Shown piece after piece: positions 2,929 to 32,270 of a stretch of 64,000 bases of DNA. The number at the start of each line of letters is the position of its first letter. Position 1 is the first letter of the stretch. The stretch is from Natronogracilivirga saccharolytica (lineage in GTDB: Bacteria; Bacteroidota; Rhodothermia; Balneolales; Natronogracilivirgulaceae): the NCBI RefSeq assembly GCF_017921895.1, contig NZ_JAFIDN010000003.1:62001-126000 (forward strand). The letters are read 5' to 3'. The position numbers were made by a program, and so were the translations under genes. The notes under the pieces are model-generated. The model worked only from the letters and a program-made list of their open reading frames with translations, was not told the DNA's origin and ran no database searches.

Positions 2929-2935
2929 AATGAGA

Positions 2936-3042
2936 TGAACTAGGCCGGACATGGTCCCGGGTCTGCAGCAGCATGAATACATACGGTCATGAAAACTCAA
3001 GTATCATTTGGAATCAGGATTTTAAACACACAAAAATTATTA
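2936..3042 (+). repeat. Degenerate copy of the flagellar leader repeat upstream of flgN
   Basis: The gap between flgJ and flgN contains CATGAATACATACGGTCATG followed about 40 bases later by GATTTTAAACACACA. The spacing and wording resemble the units upstream of flgK (CATATGATTAAATACGGTCATGG, then TTTTAAACAGATG). It looks like one decayed unit of the same family. The match is partial, so confidence is low. Confidence 0.4.
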
Positions 3043-3598: not shown

Positions 3599-3801
3599 TT
3601 TAACACATGAAATGTCCATGACCGGGCCGACGCCCGGACACACAGGCATATGATTAAATACGGTCATGGCATTACATCTGACTGTATAAATCCAAAATTT
3701 TAAACAGATGAAATACCCATGGCGGCTTACCGTCACACAGGAGCATGATTATAGCCAACATGGGTACTACATGTGACGTCAGAATCATAAATTATAAACA
3801 C
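3599..3801 (+). repeat. Two-unit leader repeat (structured, with mini-ORFs) in front of flgK
   Basis: Two imperfect units of ~101 and ~94 bases precede flgK. Each begins with TTTTAAACA-N-ATGAAA-type wording, the same as the real flgK start, so the unit looks like a duplicated start region. Unit 1 has complementary arms CCATGACCG (3616-3624) and CGGTCATGG (3661-3669) enclosing a small hairpin CCGGGC/GCCCGG (3622-3637). Unit 2 has TACCCATG (3714-3721) and CATGGGTA (3759-3766). Mini-ORFs start at 3607 (MKCP-stop) and 3708 (22 codons). The same family occurs three times at 11890-12177. Confidence 0.75.
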
Positions 3802-5160
3802 ATGAAAACCCTATTTGAAATTTCCAAAAGCGGACTGCAAAGCGCGGAACGGTCGCTGTCAGTGACTTCCAATAATGTCATCAATGCCGATACACCGGGA
3901 TACAGTCGTCAGAGAGTGGAGAAAGAGCCGGTAGGCCAGCACGTAAGGGGTCTCCATTCCGGACTCGGGGTGAATATCACCAGCATATCGCGGCTTCGCA
4001 ATGAACTTATTGATGTCCAGCTTGGCGACAAGCGCCAGGAAATGGGCTTCATGGAGGAAAAAATCAAACTGTACGAACAGCTGGAAACATCGGTTGCTTC
4101 CGATTCCGGCGGCGATCTTGATGTGCGTATCGGCAGCCTGTTCGATACGTTTTCAGAACTCTCCAACGATCCGCAGGACTTCAGTGTCCGCAATAACCTG
4201 GTCGGAGAAGCCCGGCAGCTTTCGGAAAAGATGGGGGACATGGACCGCAGTATTGACCGCGTTAGCGACGTCACCAGAGATTCGGTGAATACCACCGTTG
4301 ACAAGATCAATGAAATCCTGGCTGACCTGGCCAGCCTGAACAAGTCCATCACTGTCTCCGATGCCATGGAACGACCGGATCATGCCAGTCTGGATGTACA
4401 GGTTCAGAAGCTTGAGGAGCTCTCCGAGCTGGTCGACATCGAAACGATGACCGCCAAAAACGGCGGACTCGAGATTCGCATCGGCGGTGTGCAGGTCCTC
4501 AACCAGGACACGCACCGGGAAATCGTTGCGCATAATGACGATGTCGAAAAGCAGTTCGACCTGCGCCTGGAGAACGGAACTTCGGTGAATGCCAGCGGAG
4601 GCAAGCTGGCTGCCGGCATTGATATTTATGAAAATGAAATACCCGGTATGAAAGACCGCCTCGACCGGATTGCAGAGACGCTCGTTACCGAAATCAACAC
4701 CCTGCACAGCAGCGGATATGGTCTGGCCGATGACGAATCGCGCGACTTTTTCGACCCGGATTTCACCTCGGCATCCGACATCCGCATCAATCAGGAGATT
4801 GCGGATAATCACGAGCACATCGCGGCATCATCTGTTGCCGGACAGGCAGGAAACGGTGACATGGCGGCATCCATGGCCGAATTGCGGAACGAGCAGCTTA
4901 TAGACGGACGGAAAGTTGTGGACTACGCGGTCAACCTTATCAGCGAGCCCGGAAGCAATCTGGCGCAGCTGCGGACGGCGGCCGACTCCAGAGAATCCGA
5001 GATACGGATGCTGGAAGTTCAGCAGGAGCGTGAGGCCGGGGTGAATGTGGATGAGGAGCTGAGCAAGCTCATCCAGTATCAGAACGCCTATCAGGGAGCC
5101 GCACGGGTCATGTCATCAGCCCAGCAAATGTACGATACACTAATCAGTCTTGTGAGGTAA
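3802..5160 (+). CDS. flgK: Flagellar hook-associated protein 1 (FlgK)
   Basis: FlgK is the first of the two hook-filament junction proteins. The N-terminus has the rod/hook-type motif ISKSGLQSAERSLSVTSNNV followed by NADTPGYSRQRV, and the C-terminus ends VDEELSKLIQYQNAYQGAARVMSSAQQMYDTLISLV, both diagnostic. At ~452 residues it is somewhat shorter than enterobacterial FlgK. An in-frame ATG at 3745 lies inside the leader repeat. ATG 3802 is preferred because the FlgK homology begins there and the upstream in-frame codons are repeat sequence. flgL follows after 2 bases. Confidence 0.95.
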   Translation: MKTLFEISKSGLQSAERSLSVTSNNVINADTPGYSRQRVEKEPVGQHVRGLHSGLGVNITSISRLRNELIDVQLGDKRQEMGFMEEKIKLYEQLETSVASDSGGDLDVRIGSLFDTFSELSNDPQDFSVRNNLVGEARQLSEKMGDMDRSIDRVSDVTRDSVNTTVDKINEILADLASLNKSITVSDAMERPDHASLDVQVQKLEELSELVDIETMTAKNGGLEIRIGGVQVLNQDTHREIVAHNDDVEKQFDLRLENGTSVNASGGKLAAGIDIYENEIPGMKDRLDRIAETLVTEINTLHSSGYGLADDESRDFFDPDFTSASDIRINQEIADNHEHIAASSVAGQAGNGDMAASMAELRNEQLIDGRKVVDYAVNLISEPGSNLAQLRTAADSRESEIRMLEVQQEREAGVNVDEELSKLIQYQNAYQGAARVMSSAQQMYDTLISLVR

Positions 5161-11791: not shown

Positions 11792-11807
11792 TGCAAGTTT
11801 CGTGCCA
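11792..11807 (-). promoter_or_regulatory. Sigma-54 promoter of the fliS-fliD operon (perfect consensus)
   Basis: Minus strand TGGCACGAAACTTGCA matches the sigma-54 consensus TGGCACG-N4-TTGCW at every position, with GG and GC ten bases apart. Transcription should start about 12 bases further on and run into fliS. An NtrC-type activator is encoded 2.8 kb away. A second sigma-54 promoter on the other strand begins 7 bases to the right. Confidence 0.92.
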
Positions 11808-11814
11808 CAGTAAA

Positions 11815-11830
11815 TGGCATGTTCTTTGCA
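11815..11830 (+). promoter_or_regulatory. Sigma-54 promoter of the giant glycosyltransferase/methyltransferase gene
   Basis: Plus strand TGGCATGTTCTTTGCA differs from TGGCACG-N4-TTGCW by one base, and the GG-N10-GC spacing is exact. It points at the gene at 12178. A start near 11842 would give a leader of about 335 nt that contains the whole three-unit repeat. Confidence 0.85.
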
Positions 11831-11889
11831 ATGGTTTGATACGGACATATTGATGAGCTACGCATACACAAAACCAGTGTCCGATGGAA

Positions 11890-12177
11890 TACTGATGACC
11901 GGGTGGCTTACCGATCACAAAGGCATACGATTATATATACTCATGACACTACATCTGTCATTATAAACCGAAAGCTTTTTAGCATGAAATACCAATTGCG
12001 GCTTACCGTCACACAGTAGCATGATTATAGCCAACATGGGTACTGTATGTGACGATTTAAATCCAAATATTTAAACACATGAAATGTCCATGACCGGCTG
12101 AAATCCGGACACACATGCGCATGATTGAAACGGTCATGTCATTCTATCTGACATTATAAATCAAAACTTTTAAACAG
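11890..12177 (+). repeat. Three-unit leader repeat in the 5' region of the giant enzyme gene
   Basis: Three imperfect units (about 11890-11983, 11984-12078, 12079-12177) share wording with the two units before flgK. Common blocks are GGCTTACCG-TCACACAG, GCATGATTATAGCCAACATGGGTACT and CTGACATTATAAATC, ending in TTTTAAACA-N-ATGAAA. The last unit has arms CATGACCG and CGGTCATG enclosing CCGG-N7-CCGG. Mini-ORFs start at 11984 (11 codons, MKYQLRLTVTQ) and 12079 (MKCP-stop). It lies downstream of the sigma-54 promoter and would therefore be transcribed as RNA. Confidence 0.75.
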
Positions 12178-15100
12178 ATGAAACTGCAGCTGCAGCGGGC
12201 GATCGCCCTTTTGAACAGCCAAAAACCGAATCCCGACAAAGCCATAAAGACACTCCGGCCTCTGGTGAAGAAAAAGAATGCTCCCTGGCCGGTGTTTCAC
12301 TATATGGGCGTGGCGCTGATGCAGAAGGACAGGAATGGTGATGCAGCCGGATTCCTGCGCAAGGCACAGGAGCTTGGGTCCGATCAGCCGGAAACCTGGC
12401 ATTTGATGTCCGTGGCCGAGCACAAACAGGGGAATCATGAGCAAGCGGTGATATACGGGCAGGAGGCGCTGAAGCGGAAACCCGATTTCTTCAAGGCGTG
12501 GCTCAATCTCGGATCGGCCTACAGGGCGCAGGCAAAACTTGAAAGTGCGCTCAAATGCTATCAGAAAGCCAATCAGCTCGATCCGCGAAGCGCCGGTGTG
12601 GCATTTCGCATCGGATCCATCTACAAGGACCAGGGCAATCTCAGGAAAGCCATGGAGCTGTTCGATATTACCCTGAAAGTCGACCCGGAATACCATCAGG
12701 CAAATATTCAGAAAGCACTTATCCACCAGAAAAGCGGGGAATATCAGGAAGCCAGGGCCTGCCTCGGGGCCATTCTGGAAAAAATGCCACGCGATCTGGA
12801 AGCGAGAATATCGCTGGCTGAGGTGTGCCGTGCAGAAGGCCGTTTCGAGGAAGCAATTTCCCGCTACGAGGACATTTTGTCCGAAAAGCCGAAATTCGGT
12901 GCGGTGCGATCCAATTATGCCCTGACGCTTCAGGATATGGGCCGGTTCAACGAGTCGGAACAGAACTACCGGCAGGCATTTCGTGATCAGCCGGGGTCCA
13001 CGGAGTCCCTTTCCAATTACCTGATGGGACTCCATTACAATCCCGAAAGAACCCGGGAGGAAATTTTTGAGGCGCATATGGAGTGGGACAGGCACTTCGC
13101 GCCGGAAATCCGTCCGGAGCGCCCCGTGCCGGCCGATAAAAGCCCGGACCGCAAGCTGCGTGTCGGATTTATTTCCGGTGGGTTCTTCCGGCATCCGGTG
13201 GGCTGGATGATCACGGAAGCCCTGGAAAACCTGCCGGACGATCAGTTTGAAATTATTTGCTACACCAACAATAACATCAACGACCTGATCACAAAAAGGA
13301 TACACGCGGCTTCGGATGAGTGGAAACCGATTGTCGGATACAGCGATGAGGTTGTCGGACAGATGATCCGGGATGATGAGGTCGATATTCTGGTCGAGCT
13401 TTCCGGCCATTCGGCGTACAACCGGCTGAAGACGGTCGCGATGGAGCCGGCGCCGGTCATTGTGAAGTGGGTTGGCGGACTGTTCAACACCAGCGGGCTC
13501 CGCGCCATGGACTACCTGATCACCGACTGGCACGAGTCGCCCGAAGGAGAAGAGCCCTGTTACACGGAGAAGCTGATCCGCATGCCCGATGATTACATCT
13601 GCTTTCTGCCGCCCGAATACGCCCCGGAAGTGGGACCCCTGCCGGCAGAAGAAAAGGGGTACATCACCTTCGGCTGTTTCAACAATCCGACAAAGGTGAA
13701 CAGCCGGCTCATCGAAAAGTGGGCGGAAATCATGCATCGCGTGCCGGACAGCCGGTTGTTTCTCAAGAGCAAGCAATACGATACCGCGATGTTCACGGAC
13801 AGCATTATCAGTCAGATGGAATCTGCGGGCATTGCCCGTGAACGGCTGATCTTTGAGGGGATGTCGCCGCATCCGGAACTGCTGGATGCGTACAACCGTG
13901 TGGATATTGCGCTGGACCCCTGGCCGTATTCCGGCGGTTTGAGTACATGCGAGGCGCTTTGGATGGGTGTACCGGTAGTGACGCTGCCGGGTCCGACCTT
14001 TGCCGGGCGGCATTCCACGACCCATCTGATGAATGCGGGTTTGCCGGAGATGGTGACCGGCAGCCGTGAGGATTACATCGCGAAGGCGGTGGCACTGGCC
14101 TCGGACAAGGAGGCGCTTGCGGAGCTGCGGGCGGGCCTGCGGGAGCGGGTGCGGTTGTCGGCGCTGTGCGATGGTGAGCGGTTCGGGGCACATCTGGCGG
14201 TGGCGTTTCGTGAGATGTGGAAGCAGCGCGTGGCAGGATGGGAATCTGCTGATGACGAATGGCGGGATCATATTGCGGTGGAAGCGGGTGTATCTGTCAC
14301 AAAAAAATCAGCAGTTGAAAAAGAAGAAGCGGTGGCAAATGCATCCGGAAACGGTGCGCAGCAGGCATCGGGTGATATTAATGCAAACGGGAATGGGACC
14401 CTGTCACCGGAAACAAATGGTAATCCCGTGAAGGGCAGTACCGGTAACGGCTCAGTTGACAGTAATGAGGAAAAAACATGGAAAATCGAGACCAAAGACG
14501 ATGTGACCATCTGCACACCGGCCGACCTGAACATGCTGACGCCGTATGTGTTGCTGGAGCAGGAACAATGGTACGAGCCGGAGCTCCAGTTTGTGCGGGA
14601 TTACCTGAAGCCGGGCATGAGCGTGGTGGATGTTGGCGCCGGTTTCGGCGTGTACGCGCTGCCGATGGCGAAAAAAGTGGGTCCGGGAGGAAAGGTGTAT
14701 GCATTTGAGGCGGGGTCGCTGGCGCGCAGACATCTGGAGATGAGCAAGCTGGAGAACGGGTTTGAGCAGCTCGAGGTGATTGGCCGGGCAGTGTCGGAAA
14801 CACCGGGCAAAGCTGTTTTGAAGCATGGGAAGACTCCGGAGGAGAGCACGATCGTTGCTGACGGACAGGGCGATGAGGTGAACCTTGTCACGCTGGATGC
14901 CTGGTGGGAGTTTGAGGGGCGTCCGGAGGTGGGTCTGCTGAAAATTGATGTCAACGGAGAAGAGACCGCTGCATTGAAGGGGGCACAGCAGCTTGTCAAA
15001 GAGGAAAAACCACTGCTTTTGATTGCATTAAGCGGGCAGAACTCGCGTGATTTTGCGGAAGTTGCGGCCGGTTTTGGATACATCTTGTATGAATATGTAC

Positions 15101-27248: not shown

Positions 27249-28268
27249 TTATCCGAGGAATCCGAGAACAGACTGCGGACCCTGGTTGGCCTGGGCCAGA
27301 GCGGATACAGCTGTCTGCTGCAGGATTTGCAATCGGATAGATTCACTTTGTTCCTTTGCGAAGTCAGTGTCCATGATACGGCTGGATGCCGACTGGTTGG
27401 CGCTGATGGACTGCGAAAGGGTGACTTCGCGAACGGTCAATGAAGATTGAGCGACACCGACTTCATTGACGCGGTCGGCCATGCTGTCGATTGCGTTGTC
27501 AATGGCGCCGATGAAATGACGGAAGTCTTCAGCAGTGGCAGCTACTGCTGGATCTGCTCCATCATTGAAAACCAGCTCTCCTTGTGCCCCGGGATCGTTT
27601 TCATGAACCACCCGAATATTAGCAATACTTGTAGTACCATCGGCGGTAACACCTTCGACTGCATCGGATGTTCCAACATCAACACCAAAAAGGGAAGCAA
27701 CATTAACTGCTTCTATGCCGGTTTGCAAGGTATCCTGAGCTCGCTCTCCAACCTGAAAGGTAAGTCCAAAAGTACCTGTTAAAGTCGGATCGCCTTCACC
27801 GGCCCATGCTTCAGAGCCATCATCAGAAATGGCACCATTCAGCAATTGAAAATCCTGGAATACCGTTTGATTTGCAATTTCATTGATGTCGTTTCCAAGG
27901 GCCTGAATTTGCTCACCAATGTATCCTCTTTCCTGCTCACCGAGGGTGTCATTGGCAGCCTGGGTGGCCAGACCTTTCATTTCGATCAGGTTATCCATAA
28001 TCGTATCGAAGCTGGACTCGGCGATGTCCAGAACGGACTTGGCATCACCGACGTTCTGCAGGGCTTGTTCCAGACCTGCAACGCGGCTGTTCAGCTTGGT
28101 TGCAATGGAATAGCCTGCGGCATCGTCTTCGGCGCGGTTGATCCGCAGACCGGTCGACAATCGGAGCTGGTTTTCAGCCAGCCCTCTGTTAATGCGATTC
28201 AGTGAGAGCTGAGCATCCAACGACTGGATGTTGGTATTCACTCTGTTAAGATCACCAAAACTTGACAT
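27249..28268 (-). CDS. fliC: Flagellin 1
   Basis: The 339-residue flagellin has a conserved N-terminal D0/D1 (NIQSLDAQLSLNRINRGLAE, STGLRINRAEDDAAGYSIA) and C-terminal D1/D0 (RVNEVGVAQSSLTVREVTLS, ending QANQGPQSVLGFLG). The variable middle is only ~100 acidic residues, so D2/D3 are minimal. AAAGGAG precedes the ATG. It is the leftmost of four tandem paralogues, each with its own sigma-28-type promoter. Residues near ~225-250 (GELVFNDGADPAVAATAEDF) are shared exactly with flagellin 3. Confidence 0.96.
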   Translation of the reverse strand: MSSFGDLNRVNTNIQSLDAQLSLNRINRGLAENQLRLSTGLRINRAEDDAAGYSIATKLNSRVAGLEQALQNVGDAKSVLDIAESSFDTIMDNLIEMKGLATQAANDTLGEQERGYIGEQIQALGNDINEIANQTVFQDFQLLNGAISDDGSEAWAGEGDPTLTGTFGLTFQVGERAQDTLQTGIEAVNVASLFGVDVGTSDAVEGVTADGTTSIANIRVVHENDPGAQGELVFNDGADPAVAATAEDFRHFIGAIDNAIDSMADRVNEVGVAQSSLTVREVTLSQSISANQSASSRIMDTDFAKEQSESIRLQILQQTAVSALAQANQGPQSVLGFLG

Positions 28269-28344
28269 GATAAACTCCTTTTTAGAAGTAAATGGTAAAA
28301 GTACTTGTTATGTGAAGCTGTAGTACTGATCAGCTTTGAAGGAG

Positions 28345-28371
28345 TTATCGGTAGGTATTACAGTACCTTTA
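28345..28371 (-). promoter_or_regulatory. Sigma-28 promoter of flagellin 1
   Basis: Minus strand TAAA (28368-28371), 15 bases, ACCGATAA (28345-28352): one mismatch to TAAA-N15-GCCGATAA. It is the best sigma-28 match of the window. The -10 element is 77 bases before the ATG. Confidence 0.9.
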
Positions 28372-28454
28372 ATAAAATTTTACTTTTTGTTACAAAAGTG
28401 TTCGTTTTCATCAAGTTTTGAAGTGTAATTGCATTCAACACTGCCCGCATGAAA

Positions 28455-28488
28455 TAAAAAAGCCCCCTGAGGTTATCAGGAGGCTTTG
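28455..28488 (-). terminator. Rho-independent terminator of flagellin 2
   Basis: Minus strand GCCTCCTGATAACCTCAGGGGGC forms a GC-rich stem-loop followed by TTTTTTATTT. It lies ~118 bases after the flagellin 2 stop. The same hairpin and 3' region recur at 29886-29919 behind flagellin 3. Confidence 0.85.
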
Positions 28489-28605
28489 CTTTCTTCCGGA
28501 TCTTCGTGATCAGATGGGGCTGAGTAAGGCGGGGTGTTGATCATCTGTTCATCCCCGTTTTTCCCGTCATCAGGTTTCCTGATCAGAATCTCCTCATCAT
28601 TCAGG

Positions 28606-29592
28606 TTATCCGAGAAATCCGAGAACGGATTGCGGTCCCTGGTTGGCTTGCGCCAGAGCGGAAGTAGCCGTTTGCTGCAGGATCTGCAGTCTCACGGATT
28701 CACTTTGCTCTTTGGCGAAGTCGGTGTCCATGATGCGACTGGACGCCGATTCGTTGGCGCTGACTGACTCGGAGAGCGTAACTTCGCGGACGCTGAGTGA
28801 TGACTGGGCAACACCGACTTCATTGACACGGTCAGCCATACTGTCAATCGCGTTGTCGATGGCGCCGATGAACTCACGGAAATCCTGAGCTCCTGCCGCG
28901 GTACCATTTCCAGACTCAAATACGAGTTCGCCTTGCTCACCGGGATCATTATCGTGAGCTACTTGAATATTTGTAATCGCTCCAGTTCCACCGGCAGTAA
29001 CACCTGTTACTTCACCTGTTGTACCAACTTCAACATCAAAGAGGTTGGCAACATTAACAGCTTCGATATCAGTAGATAATATATCCTGGGCACGTTCTCC
29101 AACCTGAAAAGTTAAACCAAGTGAATCTTCGAGTGTTGGATCTCCATCGCTAAGAGCTCCATTCAGCAATTGAAAATCCTGGAACACCGTTTGATTTGCA
29201 ATTTCGTTGATGTCATTTCCAAGAGCCTGGATTTGCTCACCAATGTATTCTCTTTCCTGCTCACCGAGGGTGTCATTGGCCGCCTGGGTGGCCAGACCTT
29301 TCATTTCGATCAGGTTATCCATGATCGTATCGAAGCTGGACTCGGCAATGTCCAGAACGGACTTGGCATCACCTACGTTCTGCAGGGCCTGCTCGAGGCC
29401 TTCCACACGGCTGTCCAGTTTGGTTGCAATGGAATAGCCGGCAGCATCGTCTTCGGCGCGGTTGATCCGCAAACCGGTCGACATTCTGAGCTGGTTGTCG
29501 GCCATGTCGCGGTTGATTCGGTTCAGTGACAGCTGGGAATCCAGCGACTGAATATTGGTATTTACTCTGTTGAGATCTCCAAAGCTTGACAT
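28606..29592 (-). CDS. fliC: Flagellin 2
   Basis: A 328-residue flagellin with the same N- and C-terminal D0/D1 domains as its neighbours (DMADNQLRMSTGLRINRAED; VTLSESVSANESASSRIMDTDFAKEQ). The variable middle (~150-240) differs: GTTGEVTGVTAGGTGAITN, NGTAAGAQDFREF. AGGAG precedes the ATG. Its promoter, first ~430 bases, last ~190 bases and 3' untranslated region are nearly identical to those of flagellin 3. Confidence 0.96.
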   Translation of the reverse strand: MSSFGDLNRVNTNIQSLDSQLSLNRINRDMADNQLRMSTGLRINRAEDDAAGYSIATKLDSRVEGLEQALQNVGDAKSVLDIAESSFDTIMDNLIEMKGLATQAANDTLGEQEREYIGEQIQALGNDINEIANQTVFQDFQLLNGALSDGDPTLEDSLGLTFQVGERAQDILSTDIEAVNVANLFDVEVGTTGEVTGVTAGGTGAITNIQVAHDNDPGEQGELVFESGNGTAAGAQDFREFIGAIDNAIDSMADRVNEVGVAQSSLSVREVTLSESVSANESASSRIMDTDFAKEQSESVRLQILQQTATSALAQANQGPQSVLGFLG

Positions 29593-29667
29593 AGTAACTC
29601 CTGTTTTTAATGTCAGTTTTTGTTTTGTTGGGTAATTCGATTCGCATGTGTTATGCGGTTACACAGG

Positions 29668-29694
29668 TTATCGAACTGCTTTGGTCTCACTTAA
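29668..29694 (-). promoter_or_regulatory. Sigma-28-type promoter of flagellin 2
   Basis: Minus strand TTAA (29691-29694), 15 bases, TTCGATAA (29668-29675). Spacing is exact and nine of twelve positions match TAAA-N15-GCCGATAA. The element and the following ~75-base leader are almost identical to those of flagellin 3. Confidence 0.8.
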
Positions 29695-29885
29695 ATAAAA
29701 CGGCGCTGTTTATGGTCCGTTTGATAAGTTTTACCTCAAGGATTTTCATTACAATGATAATCAACAGTATCAAAGCAAGGTGTAGCGTCAAAAGTCAGGT
29801 TTTGAAATTGCTGATAGCAATGCTGAGGGTGGGATATTATGATATTATTAAGTACCCATATTTTGTTAGCATTCAATTCGTTACA

Positions 29886-29919
29886 AAATAAAAGCCCCCT
29901 GAGGTTATCAGGAGGCTTT
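29886..29919 (-). terminator. Rho-independent terminator of flagellin 3 (copy of that at 28455)
   Basis: The same stem GCCTCCTGATAACCTCAGGGGGC with a T-rich tail as behind flagellin 2. About 140 bases of 3' untranslated sequence are also duplicated with few changes. Confidence 0.85.
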
Positions 29920-30037
29920 GCTTTCTTCCGGATCTTCGTGATCAGATGGGGCTGAGTAAGGCGGGGTGTTGATCATCTGTTCATCCCCGATTTTCCCGTC
30001 ATCAGGTCTTCTGATCAGAATCATCTCATCATTCAGG

Positions 30038-31027
30038 TTATCCGAGAAATCCGAGAACGGATTGCGGTCCCTGGTTGGCTTGCGCCAGAGCGGAAGTAGC
30101 CGTTTGCTGCAGGATCTGCAGTCTCACGGATTCACTTTGCTCTTTGGCGAAGTCGGTGTCCATGATGCGACTGGACGCCGATTCGTTGGCGCTGACTGAC
30201 TCGGAGAGCGTAACTTCGCGGACGCTGAGTGAAGATTGGGCTACACCGACTTCATTGACGCGGTCGGCCATGCTGTCGATTGCGTTGTCAATGGCGCCGA
30301 TGAAATGACGGAAGTCTTCAGCAGTGGCAGCTACTGCTGGATCTGCTCCATCATTGAAAACCAACTCACCTTGGGCTCCATCTGCTACAGTTCCTTCAAC
30401 TCTGATATTTGCAATATCTTCAGCACCACCTGCAGTGACACCTTCTACTGGGTCTCCACCTTGTGCATCAAAAAGCGCAGCAACGTTTACAGCTTCAATA
30501 CCTGTATCCAATGTATCCTGAGCTCTTTCACCAACCTGGAAGGTCAGTCCGAACGTGCCTGATAATGTTGGATCCCCGTCAGTATCAAGATCACCATTAA
30601 GCAATTGAAAATCCTGGAATACCGTCTGATTGGCTATTTCATTGATATCATTACCAAGTGCAGAAATTTGCTCACCAATGTATTCTCTTTCCTGATCACC
30701 AAGGGTGTCATTTGCAGCCTGTGTAGCCAGACCTTTCATTTCGATCAGGTTATCCATGATCGTATCGAAGCTGGATTCAGTAATGTCCAGAACGGACTTG
30801 GCATCACCGACGTTCTGAAGTGCCTGCTCGAGGCCTTCCACACGGCTGTCCAGTTTGGTTGCAATGGAATAGCCGGCAGCATCGTCTTCTGCGCGGTTGA
30901 TCCGCAGACCGGTCGACATTCTGAGCTGGTTGTCGGCCATGTCGCGGTTGATTCGGTTCAGTGACAGCTGGGAATCCAGCGACTGAATATTTGTATTTAC
31001 TCTGTTAAGATCTCCAAAGCTTGACAT
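30038..31027 (-). CDS. fliC: Flagellin 3 (mosaic of flagellins 1 and 2)
   Basis: A 329-residue flagellin. Its N-terminal half, promoter, last ~60 codons and 3' region match flagellin 2. A stretch encoding GELVFNDGADPAVAATAEDFRHFIGAIDNAIDSMADR (DNA ~30230-30365) is almost base-for-base that of flagellin 1. This patchwork is the mark of gene conversion between the tandem copies. The variable middle (DTDGDPTLSGTF, AQGGDPVEGVTAGGAEDI) is partly its own. D0/D1 ends are intact, so the protein should be functional. Confidence 0.96.
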   Translation of the reverse strand: MSSFGDLNRVNTNIQSLDSQLSLNRINRDMADNQLRMSTGLRINRAEDDAAGYSIATKLDSRVEGLEQALQNVGDAKSVLDITESSFDTIMDNLIEMKGLATQAANDTLGDQEREYIGEQISALGNDINEIANQTVFQDFQLLNGDLDTDGDPTLSGTFGLTFQVGERAQDTLDTGIEAVNVAALFDAQGGDPVEGVTAGGAEDIANIRVEGTVADGAQGELVFNDGADPAVAATAEDFRHFIGAIDNAIDSMADRVNEVGVAQSSLSVREVTLSESVSANESASSRIMDTDFAKEQSESVRLQILQQTATSALAQANQGPQSVLGFLG

Positions 31028-31099
31028 AGTAACTCCTGTTTTTAATGTCAGTTTTTTTGTTGGGTAATTCGATTCGCATGTGCTATGCGGTTACACAGG

Positions 31100-31126
31100 T
31101 TATCGAACTGCTTTGGCCTCGCTTAA
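31100..31126 (-). promoter_or_regulatory. Sigma-28-type promoter of flagellin 3
   Basis: Minus strand TTAA (31123-31126), 15 bases, TTCGATAA (31100-31107). It matches the flagellin 2 promoter in both elements and in most of the spacer. Confidence 0.8.
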
Positions 31127-31167
31127 ATAAAAAAACAAAAGCCCTCCGGCCGTCGCCGGAGGGCTTT
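31127..31167 (-). terminator. Rho-independent terminator of flagellin 4
   Basis: Minus strand GCCCTCCGGC-GACG-GCCGGAGGGC is a perfect 10-bp stem with a 4-base loop, followed by TTTTGTTTTTTT. It lies 114 bases after the flagellin 4 stop. A second perfect stem (CCGGTGA/TCACCGG, 31250-31270) sits right after the stop codon. Confidence 0.9.
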
Positions 31168-31280
31168 GTTCAGACAGAGAGTATCCTTGGGCGGATGGGG
31201 ATCTTGGGCGGAATCCCTGTTCTTCTGCCTGCTATATGATTGCTGCTGCCCGGTGATGCCCGTTCACCGGACGAGTTTCT

Positions 31281-32270
31281 TTATCCGCCAATGAAACCGA
31301 GTACAGACTGCGGACCCTGATTGGCTTGCGCCAGTGATGATGTAGCCGTTTGCTGCAGAATCTGCAGACGAACGGATTCACTTTGCTCTTTGGCAAAATC
31401 GGTGTCCATGATCCGGCTGGCCGCCGCCTCATTGGCACTTATTGACTGTGACAACGTCACTTCACGAACGGAGAGCGATGACTGGGACATGCCGATGTCA
31501 TTTACACGCTCGGACATCCGGTTGATGGCTTCGTCGACGGCACCTATGAACGCCCGGAAATCGGTCGCTTCGGCCGCATCGCCATCTTCGTCAATTTGAC
31601 TATTGAATACCAGGCTTCCCTGGGTTCCGGGTCCGGTATCGGTTGTATCGAGAATGATATTATCAATAGTGGATCCATCCGCACCATCGCCCGCTGTAAA
31701 GCCAGTGATGCCATTCTCATCACCATCAAACAGCGCCGCCACATTGACCGGACTCAGATTTGCTTCCAGAACATCCTGGGCGCGTTCGCCGACCTGGAAT
31801 ACCAGGGTAAGGTCCGTCTCAAAATCACCATCATCGCCGTTCAGCAACTCGTAATCCTGAAATACCGACTGATTGGCGATTTCATTGATATCATCGCCGA
31901 GAGCGAAGATCTGCTCTCCGATGTATTTACGTTCTTCAGCGCCGAGCGTGTCGTTGGCCGCCTGGGTGGCCAGTCCCTTCATCTCAATCAGACTGTCCAT
32001 GATTGTATCGAAGCTGGATTCGGCTATATCGAGGACCGACTTGGCATCACCGACGTTCTGCAGCGCCTGATCGAGTCCCGTGACCCGGCTGTTCAGTTTT
32101 GTTGCGATGGAATATCCGGCTGCATCGTCTTCGGCCTTGTTGATCCGCAGACCGGTTGACATCCGCATCTGATTCTCTGCAAGGTTCCGGTTGATGCGGT
32201 TCAGCGACAGCTGGGAGTCGCGGGACTGGATGTTGGTGTTGATCCGGTTTAAATCTCCAAAACTTGACAT
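31281..32270 (-). CDS. fliC: Flagellin 4 (most diverged copy)
   Basis: A 329-residue flagellin with the same D0/D1 frame. It differs more than the others (NIQSRDSQLSLNRINRNLAE; RVNDIGMSQSSLSVREVTLS; ending GPQSVLGFIGG) and has a distinct Asp-rich middle (FDGDENGITGFTAGDGADG). Its promoter and leader are also different from those of flagellins 2 and 3, including three TTGCCCAATG repeats, so it is probably regulated separately. TAGGAG lies before the ATG. Confidence 0.96.
   Translation of the reverse strand: MSSFGDLNRINTNIQSRDSQLSLNRINRNLAENQMRMSTGLRINKAEDDAAGYSIATKLNSRVTGLDQALQNVGDAKSVLDIAESSFDTIMDSLIEMKGLATQAANDTLGAEERKYIGEQIFALGDDINEIANQSVFQDYELLNGDDGDFETDLTLVFQVGERAQDVLEANLSPVNVAALFDGDENGITGFTAGDGADGSTIDNIILDTTDTGPGTQGSLVFNSQIDEDGDAAEATDFRAFIGAVDEAINRMSERVNDIGMSQSSLSVREVTLSQSISANEAAASRIMDTDFAKEQSESVRLQILQQTATSSLAQANQGPQSVLGFIGG

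Follow-up and report, generated by a model that had tools for sequence, protein, structure and literature searches.

A structured repeat unit ending in ATGAA, found before flgK and a giant TPR-GT41 gene, is probably a spreading 5′-leader element of one Balneolota family

Introduction

The usual picture of small dispersed repeats is one of copies scattered through extragenic DNA. Elements of the IS200/IS605 type insert beside a fixed short motif, lack terminal inverted repeats and carry subterminal hairpins, and some riboswitches and RNA thermometers bury the start codon within a 5′ leader. The repeat units described here, which occur in a 64,000-nucleotide stretch of DNA from Natronogracilivirga saccharolytica (hereafter, the window), resemble each of these in part. 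Like the IS200/IS605 type, they have subterminal hairpins and no terminal inverted repeats and appear to insert 3′ of a short target; however, no transposase gene lies in any unit, Y1 transposase genes do not track the units, and one pentamer serves as both target and right end. With riboswitches and RNA thermometers they share a 5′-leader position, conserved helices, a start-codon stem and tandem copies, but they have no match in Rfam, form 78 arrays before unrelated genes and are not kept at the tested orthologous sites.

REP sequences and REPINs, which are associated with RAYT transposases (Bertels and Rainey 2011, PMC3116915), are, like the units, short, non-autonomous, dispersed in high copy number, partly in tandem clusters, and able to fold as single-stranded DNA or RNA; in contrast to REPINs, the units are about 100 bp long, end in ATGAA, are co-oriented with the gene, lie on start codons and have no consistent Y1 transposase. 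The pneumococcal BOX, RUP and SPRITE sequences (PMC3049150) are likewise small interspersed repeats, and BOX is in addition modular with tandem boxB, is transcribed with its neighbours and can create small ORFs (PMC3049150). The likeness to BOX is one of description, and BOX is not described as ending where the following gene has its native start codon. The units work like a small dispersed repeat of the REPIN or BOX kind, and here a fold-conserved family of such repeats occupies native start codons, including those of the housekeeping genes sucC and purQ, with the protein unaltered. No published description of the units was found in the open-access literature, and repeats are not mentioned in the paper that describes the genome of a cultivated member of the phylum from a soda lake (PMC6243061).

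Units in the window

Window coordinates are positions of contig C3 (NZ_JAFIDN010000003.1) minus 62000. The first-pass annotation of this DNA had counted two units before flgK, three before the giant gene and a decayed one before flgN, and this tally was correct. Scores refer to a covariance model (R1) built from 26 units.

2930-3034, + strand, very decayed unit before flgN, terminal ATG lost (R1, 34.9 bits, E=0.019)
3607-3712, + strand, unit 1 before flgK, subtype A, 106 bp including both ATGAA ends, one ATGAA being common with unit 2 (R1, 126.9 bits)
3616-3669, + strand, P1 stem of unit 1, CCATGACCG (3616-3624) pairing with CGGTCATGG (3661-3669) and enclosing hairpin P2 and the conserved core ACACAGGCATATGATTA
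3675-3710, + strand, P3 stem of unit 1, CATCTG (3675-3680) with CAGATG (3705-3710), the latter strand containing the next unit's ATG; with a C-G/G-C swap among members of the family
3708-3806, + strand, unit 2 before flgK, subtype B, terminal ATG at 3802 being the flgK start codon (R1, 84.3 bits)
3770-3804, + strand, P3 stem of unit 2, CATGTG (3770-3775) with CACATG (3799-3804), burying the flgK start codon in the predicted minimum-energy fold
11815-11829, + strand, sigma54-type promoter motif TGGCATGTTCTTTGC of the giant gene, kept before the orthologues of five relatives
11884-11988, + strand, unit 3, first before the giant gene, decayed and weak (R1, 46.7 bits, E=1.1e-4)
11984-12083, + strand, unit 4 before the giant gene, subtype B (R1, 80 bits)
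12079-12182, + strand, unit 5 before the giant gene, subtype A, terminal ATG at 12178 being the giant-gene start (R1, 103.1 bits)
12145-12180, + strand, P3 stem of unit 5, TATCTG (12145-12150) with CAGATG (12175-12180), predicted from the sequence and the pair counts of the family to bury the giant-gene start codon
12178-17808, + strand, giant gene downstream of units 3-5, 1876 aa, with TPR, GT41, FkbM methyltransferase and APH domains (Pfam)

The identity of the gene starting at 3802 as flgK is backed by Pfam matches. Each window unit has ATGAA at both of its ends, in degenerate form where the unit is decayed, and neighbouring units overlap by exactly these five bases. As had been noted before, intact units do end in a copy of a start region, usually the native start of the gene. 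Units 3-5 lie downstream of the sigma54-type motif, within the predicted 5′ leader of the giant gene. This motif belongs to a divergent pair (window 11793-11829) with a spacing of 7 bases, in which TGGCACGAAACTTGC on the minus strand faces fliS/fliD and TGGCATGTTCTTTGC on the plus strand faces the giant gene. Elsewhere in the window, four consecutive flagellin genes lie on direct repeats of about 1.2 kb (27249-32270, minus strand).

Fold and covariation

The long-range arms CCATGACCG...CGGTCATGG and the P2 stem that is kept while its loop changes, both described in the first-pass annotation, were confirmed in the window units. A second stem per unit (P3), which had been missed, pairs CATNTG with CANATG and takes up the downstream start codon. 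Against shuffled sequence, a better fold was obtained for the units at 3607 and 3708 (z about -3) but not for the unit at 11984 (z -0.98). Among 107 aligned units, 86.5% of the pair cells were standard, and compensatory changes on both sides were found in 15 of 18 pairs across all three helices; for P1 in the unit family they were found in 7 of 8 pairs. The covariation score was 0.198, against 0.113 for shuffled alignments (0 of 500 shuffles reached 0.198) and at most 0.041 for slid structures, as obtained from an alignment that was fitted to the model, and so favours its structure, and from copies that share descent. When RNAalifold was applied to a MAFFT alignment, the start-codon stem only was returned, because subtypes A and B are offset by one base; P1 and P2 were recovered with the model-based alignment. 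Judged from the aligned sequences, the fold of the unit is a real, conserved nucleic-acid structure.

The variable base of P3 swaps between C and G in step with the start region (p=7e-4 in the own genome, G000; p=1e-4 in the other genomes) and avoids complementarity to the upstream ATG (p=0.03 and 0.015, respectively). Since this anti-start base complements the downstream and not the upstream start region, the strand matches the start that follows within its own unit rather than the one that precedes it. The variable base and the base preceding the upstream ATG tend to be alike, and tandem units tend to alternate between C and G types (for example, window 3675-3710 and 3770-3804). In strong units, G-T wobbles on the sense strand outnumber A-C mismatches by 57 to 19, with a few positions dominating these counts, and this excess hints that it is the sense strand that folds, as RNA.

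The compensatory changes in all three helices, the swap of the start-codon stem with its avoidance of the upstream ATG, and the wobble excess would also suit a genome-wide RNA regulon, that is, a cis translational switch recruited to many genes, in which the CATNTG strand sequesters the start codon until a ligand, a protein or an sRNA frees it. The evidence on the other side of this reading comes from the distribution of the units and is given with it below. A search of Rfam 15 returned no match, either for the window at the gathering threshold or for six unit-bearing loci at E<=1, in agreement with the earlier statement that no known riboswitch class is recognised. CsrA sites were also considered by eye and rejected, with no conservation between subtypes.

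The mini-ORFs reported earlier (MKCP-stop, MKYQLRLTVTQ-stop and a 22-codon ORF) are all present by direct reading. Their length varies with subtype (two, four or 22 codons) with no conservation between subtypes, and they look like a by-product of the ATGAA overlap. A leader-peptide function was rejected because the mini-ORFs differ among subtypes. In 49 of 66 aligned units, the ORF opened by the ATG of P1 stops at a TGA that overlaps the core ATGATTA (ATGA overlap). The spacing of this overlap is not tied to a single reading frame (31 instead of 32 nt in 10 units of the own genome), and since it is not strictly kept, the chain of stop/start overlaps probably reflects common descent.

Copies in the genome and in relatives

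The covariance-model scan that the first-pass annotation had proposed was run, and units with covarying folds were found dispersed throughout the genome and in relatives. The 16-base core occurs in 41 exact copies in the own genome, against 0 for a reversed control pattern, and at least 105 units were detected by the R1 scan at E<=0.01. At least 109 R1 matches make up the 78 arrays (55 single, 17 double, 4 triple and 2 quadruple), in which the overlap between tandem neighbours is exactly ATGAA, five bases, at 27 of 31 junctions. The units are 95-120 bp long, identical copies lie at unlinked loci (for example, L097/L135, L116/L127 and L122/L131), and a self-BLAST of about 0.9 Mb of the own genome gave them as the dominant short intergenic repeat. 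At L138 1266-1405 (own genome C8, about 86.6-86.8 kb), unit matches on opposite strands overlap, which indicates a head-to-head or flipped unit.

Related units were present in 17 of 20 genomes of one Balneolota family, namely the own genome and 16 others (the named relatives being soda-lake Balneolales MAGs) with at least 4 to at least 141 units each, counts that are lower bounds, with 150 candidates scored per genome; the three other genomes of the family had no R1 units. When the exact core pattern was used, no other sampled family of the order stood out from the control. Plasmids, phages and viral contigs gave no match, and inspection of the sequence immediately around nine orphan unit ends (heads or tails) of the own genome did not reveal a longer autonomous relative bounded by unit halves.

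A tandem RNA regulator dedicated to flagellar assembly and the glycosylation of flagellin, along the lines of the leader first proposed from the window, would account for five units before two genes of the flagellar cluster and for three giant-gene units downstream of a conserved sigma54-type motif. About 100 further units before unrelated genes, and orthologous flagellar leaders of relatives without units, speak against it; this proposal is largely refuted by the genome-wide distribution and is hardly credible now. The part of the earlier interpretation that stood is the conserved fold with compensatory changes and without an Rfam class. The part left unsupported is a leader particular to flgK and the giant enzyme, as the same units precede dozens of unrelated genes, orthologous leaders are empty and near-identical copies are unlinked. 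A structured, covarying tandem leader is not necessarily a riboswitch.

Orthologous sites

A mobile element leaves orthologous sites filled in some genomes and empty in others, and such sites were found at flgK, sucC and the giant gene. Starts without a unit were found in 11 flgK orthologues of relatives, where between a few and about 100 nt separate flgN from flgK, in 17 sucC orthologues (G011 having a decayed copy about 100 nt upstream) and in 6 giant-gene orthologues. These empty starts show that the units there are lineage-specific insertions, whose exact boundaries are taken from the array geometry, the relatives being too distant for base-by-base alignment around the empty sites. Since the sigma54-type motif is kept before five of these giant-gene orthologues, which were aligned, the three giant-gene units were added inside the predicted leader. 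For another unit-bearing gene, L095, the orthologue search gave distant homologues only and no usable empty site.

In three gene families, those of rmlA, of an amine-oxidase-like gene and of a further gene, units were seen in two or more genera, with differing subtypes. From the sequences, different subtypes at one orthologous start fit repeated insertion or replacement. Units retained in several genera would also agree with a kept function, as the RNA regulon supposes; this reading is opposed by the replacement of one subtype by another at a single site and by the empty flgK, sucC and giant-gene orthologues. Retention before one pathway across species, as seen with riboswitches, was not found, the genes being unrelated and the orthologous sites empty.

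Placement at start codons

In the own genome, 52 of the 78 arrays have a terminal ATG that starts an ORF at least 90 codons long. Strong arrays lie at 34 starts and 9 other places, against 168 unoccupied non-coding ATGAA sites near gene starts and 238 elsewhere (p=3e-6), with 2715 further unoccupied ATGAA sites in coding sequence; these figures are approximate, as the genes were called as simple longest ORFs in 800 kb of the own genome. The enrichment at start codons beyond that given by ATGAA alone may reflect, at least partly, selection against harm elsewhere rather than targeting.

The unit-bearing genes share no function and include purQ, sucC, rmlA, a cobalamin adenosyltransferase gene, transporter genes and flgK, most names having been read from the beginning of the protein and not from full annotation. 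The MK or MN protein starts behind the units are native, as in sucC, where MNIHEYQAKE is kept in 17 relatives. In the relative G003 (L054), a unit immediately precedes an ORF of 51 aa whose sequence looks like ribosomal protein L34 (rpmH), and the leader seems to be tolerated before this highly expressed type of gene.

The start-codon enrichment would also be expected of the RNA regulon. The lack of a common function among the downstream genes, and nine strong arrays whose terminal ATG opens no 90-codon ORF, are at odds with it, and we regard such a regulon as rather unlikely. A repeated DNA element such as a promoter or operator could make use of the A/T-rich tail of the unit and of its conserved core as a protein site; yet the units end exactly at the ATG and not at promoter distance, lie downstream of the sigma54-type motif at the giant gene and of a TTTGTAA motif, also present in relatives, at sucC, and show compensatory changes in pairing, which makes this explanation very improbable.

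Proposed movement and possible effect on translation

The units are best explained, with a probability of about 0.78, as a non-autonomous, proliferating or mobile structured 5′-leader element of one Balneolota family, inserted 3′ of ATGAA. Briefly, the element, which itself ends in ATGAA, would insert 3′ of this pentamer, so that on landing at a gene that starts with ATGAA the start codon and the reading frame would be preserved, and the transcript would gain a structured leader and an A/T-rich ribosome-landing tail (AAAATTTTAAACA[CG]ATGAA). Later copies would land on the new ATGAA and give rise to tandem arrays with five-base overlaps. Movement would be brought about by a trans-acting enzyme working on a folded single-stranded (or RNA) copy. 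Two enzyme families were compared with the units and neither tracked them, and neither excision nor transposition was directly observed.

A miniature element of the ordinary REP/REPIN type or derived from IS200/IS605, with a Y1 tyrosine transposase as its mover, would likewise be short, hairpin-forming, dispersed, non-coding and partly tandem, and one full-length Y1_Tnp gene (PF01797) is carried by the own genome. The units do occur, as REP sequences do, in many extragenic hairpin-forming copies. However, Y1_Tnp was absent from most unit-rich genomes (for example, G007, G003, G012 and G014), including one 98% complete genome with 42 units, and was present in unit-free ones; the units are gene-oriented and end at start codons, in contrast to REPIN doublets, for which a random distribution over extragenic space is described (PMC3116915). 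By reading of the consensus of 107 units, no REP tag (GTAG/GGAG or CGTC at the foot of a 20-40 bp palindrome) was found at the foot of P1/P2, GGAG occurring only inside the core of some units. As for MITE features, the consensus has ATGAA at both ends in the manner of a duplication, and its termini are not inverted repeats of each other. A Y1-moved element of this ordinary kind is improbable. As mobilisers of the units, the Y1 transposase and also reverse transcriptase were rejected because their presence does not track the units.

With the spreading leader element, translation would be expected to be influenced modestly by way of the stem in which the start codon is buried. Bacteroidetes mRNAs lack Shine-Dalgarno sequences, and mRNA structure and start-adjacent nucleotides tune initiation (PMC6847099, on Flavobacterium; we assume that this carries over to Balneolota), and in the same Flavobacterium work extra AUGs were underrepresented near Bacteroidetes starts (PMC6847099). 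The location of the start codon inside a conserved stem makes an effect on translation plausible. With a unit come an A/T-rich landing tail on the one hand and additional AUGs and a start-codon stem on the other, so a change in translation, up or down, would be likely. More tentatively, the units may be a mobile element specialised for start codons, whose target and right end are both ATGAA, so that the gene's start would be restored at each insertion; the result would be a self-spreading, ready-made translational-control leader with an anti-start strand paired to its own downstream AUG and kept mismatched to the upstream AUG, and with a mover not yet recognised. If movement takes place as proposed, such an element could spread nearly harmlessly in a compact genome, possibly rewiring the translation of dozens of genes, and the numerous filled and empty sites render this spread testable.

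Accompanying repeats

A 17-nt insert, CCGAAGGTCACGAAGTG, occurs right after ATGAA, either ahead of the first ATG that belongs to the unit or, in inverted orientation, in the other of the two arms, and was not seen in both arms. It is present in 30 copies in the own genome; units that carry it include those at L103, L055, L074, L087 and L122. In the relative G014 (contigs C85 and C258) it also forms tandem copies spaced 39 bp apart. Another repeat, 208 bp long and present at two places with 99% identity, ends in AATTATAAACACATGAA at the starts of two unrelated genes.

L236 2485-2692 (own genome C4, about 287 kb), - strand, copy of the 208-bp repeat ending in AATTATAAACACATGAA
L238 2714-2924 (own genome C16, about 21.3 kb), + strand, copy of the 208-bp repeat ending in AATTATAAACACATGAA

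This repeat is a different element with the tail of the units, and its ending at gene starts in the same AATTATAAACACATGAA suggests machinery common to both.
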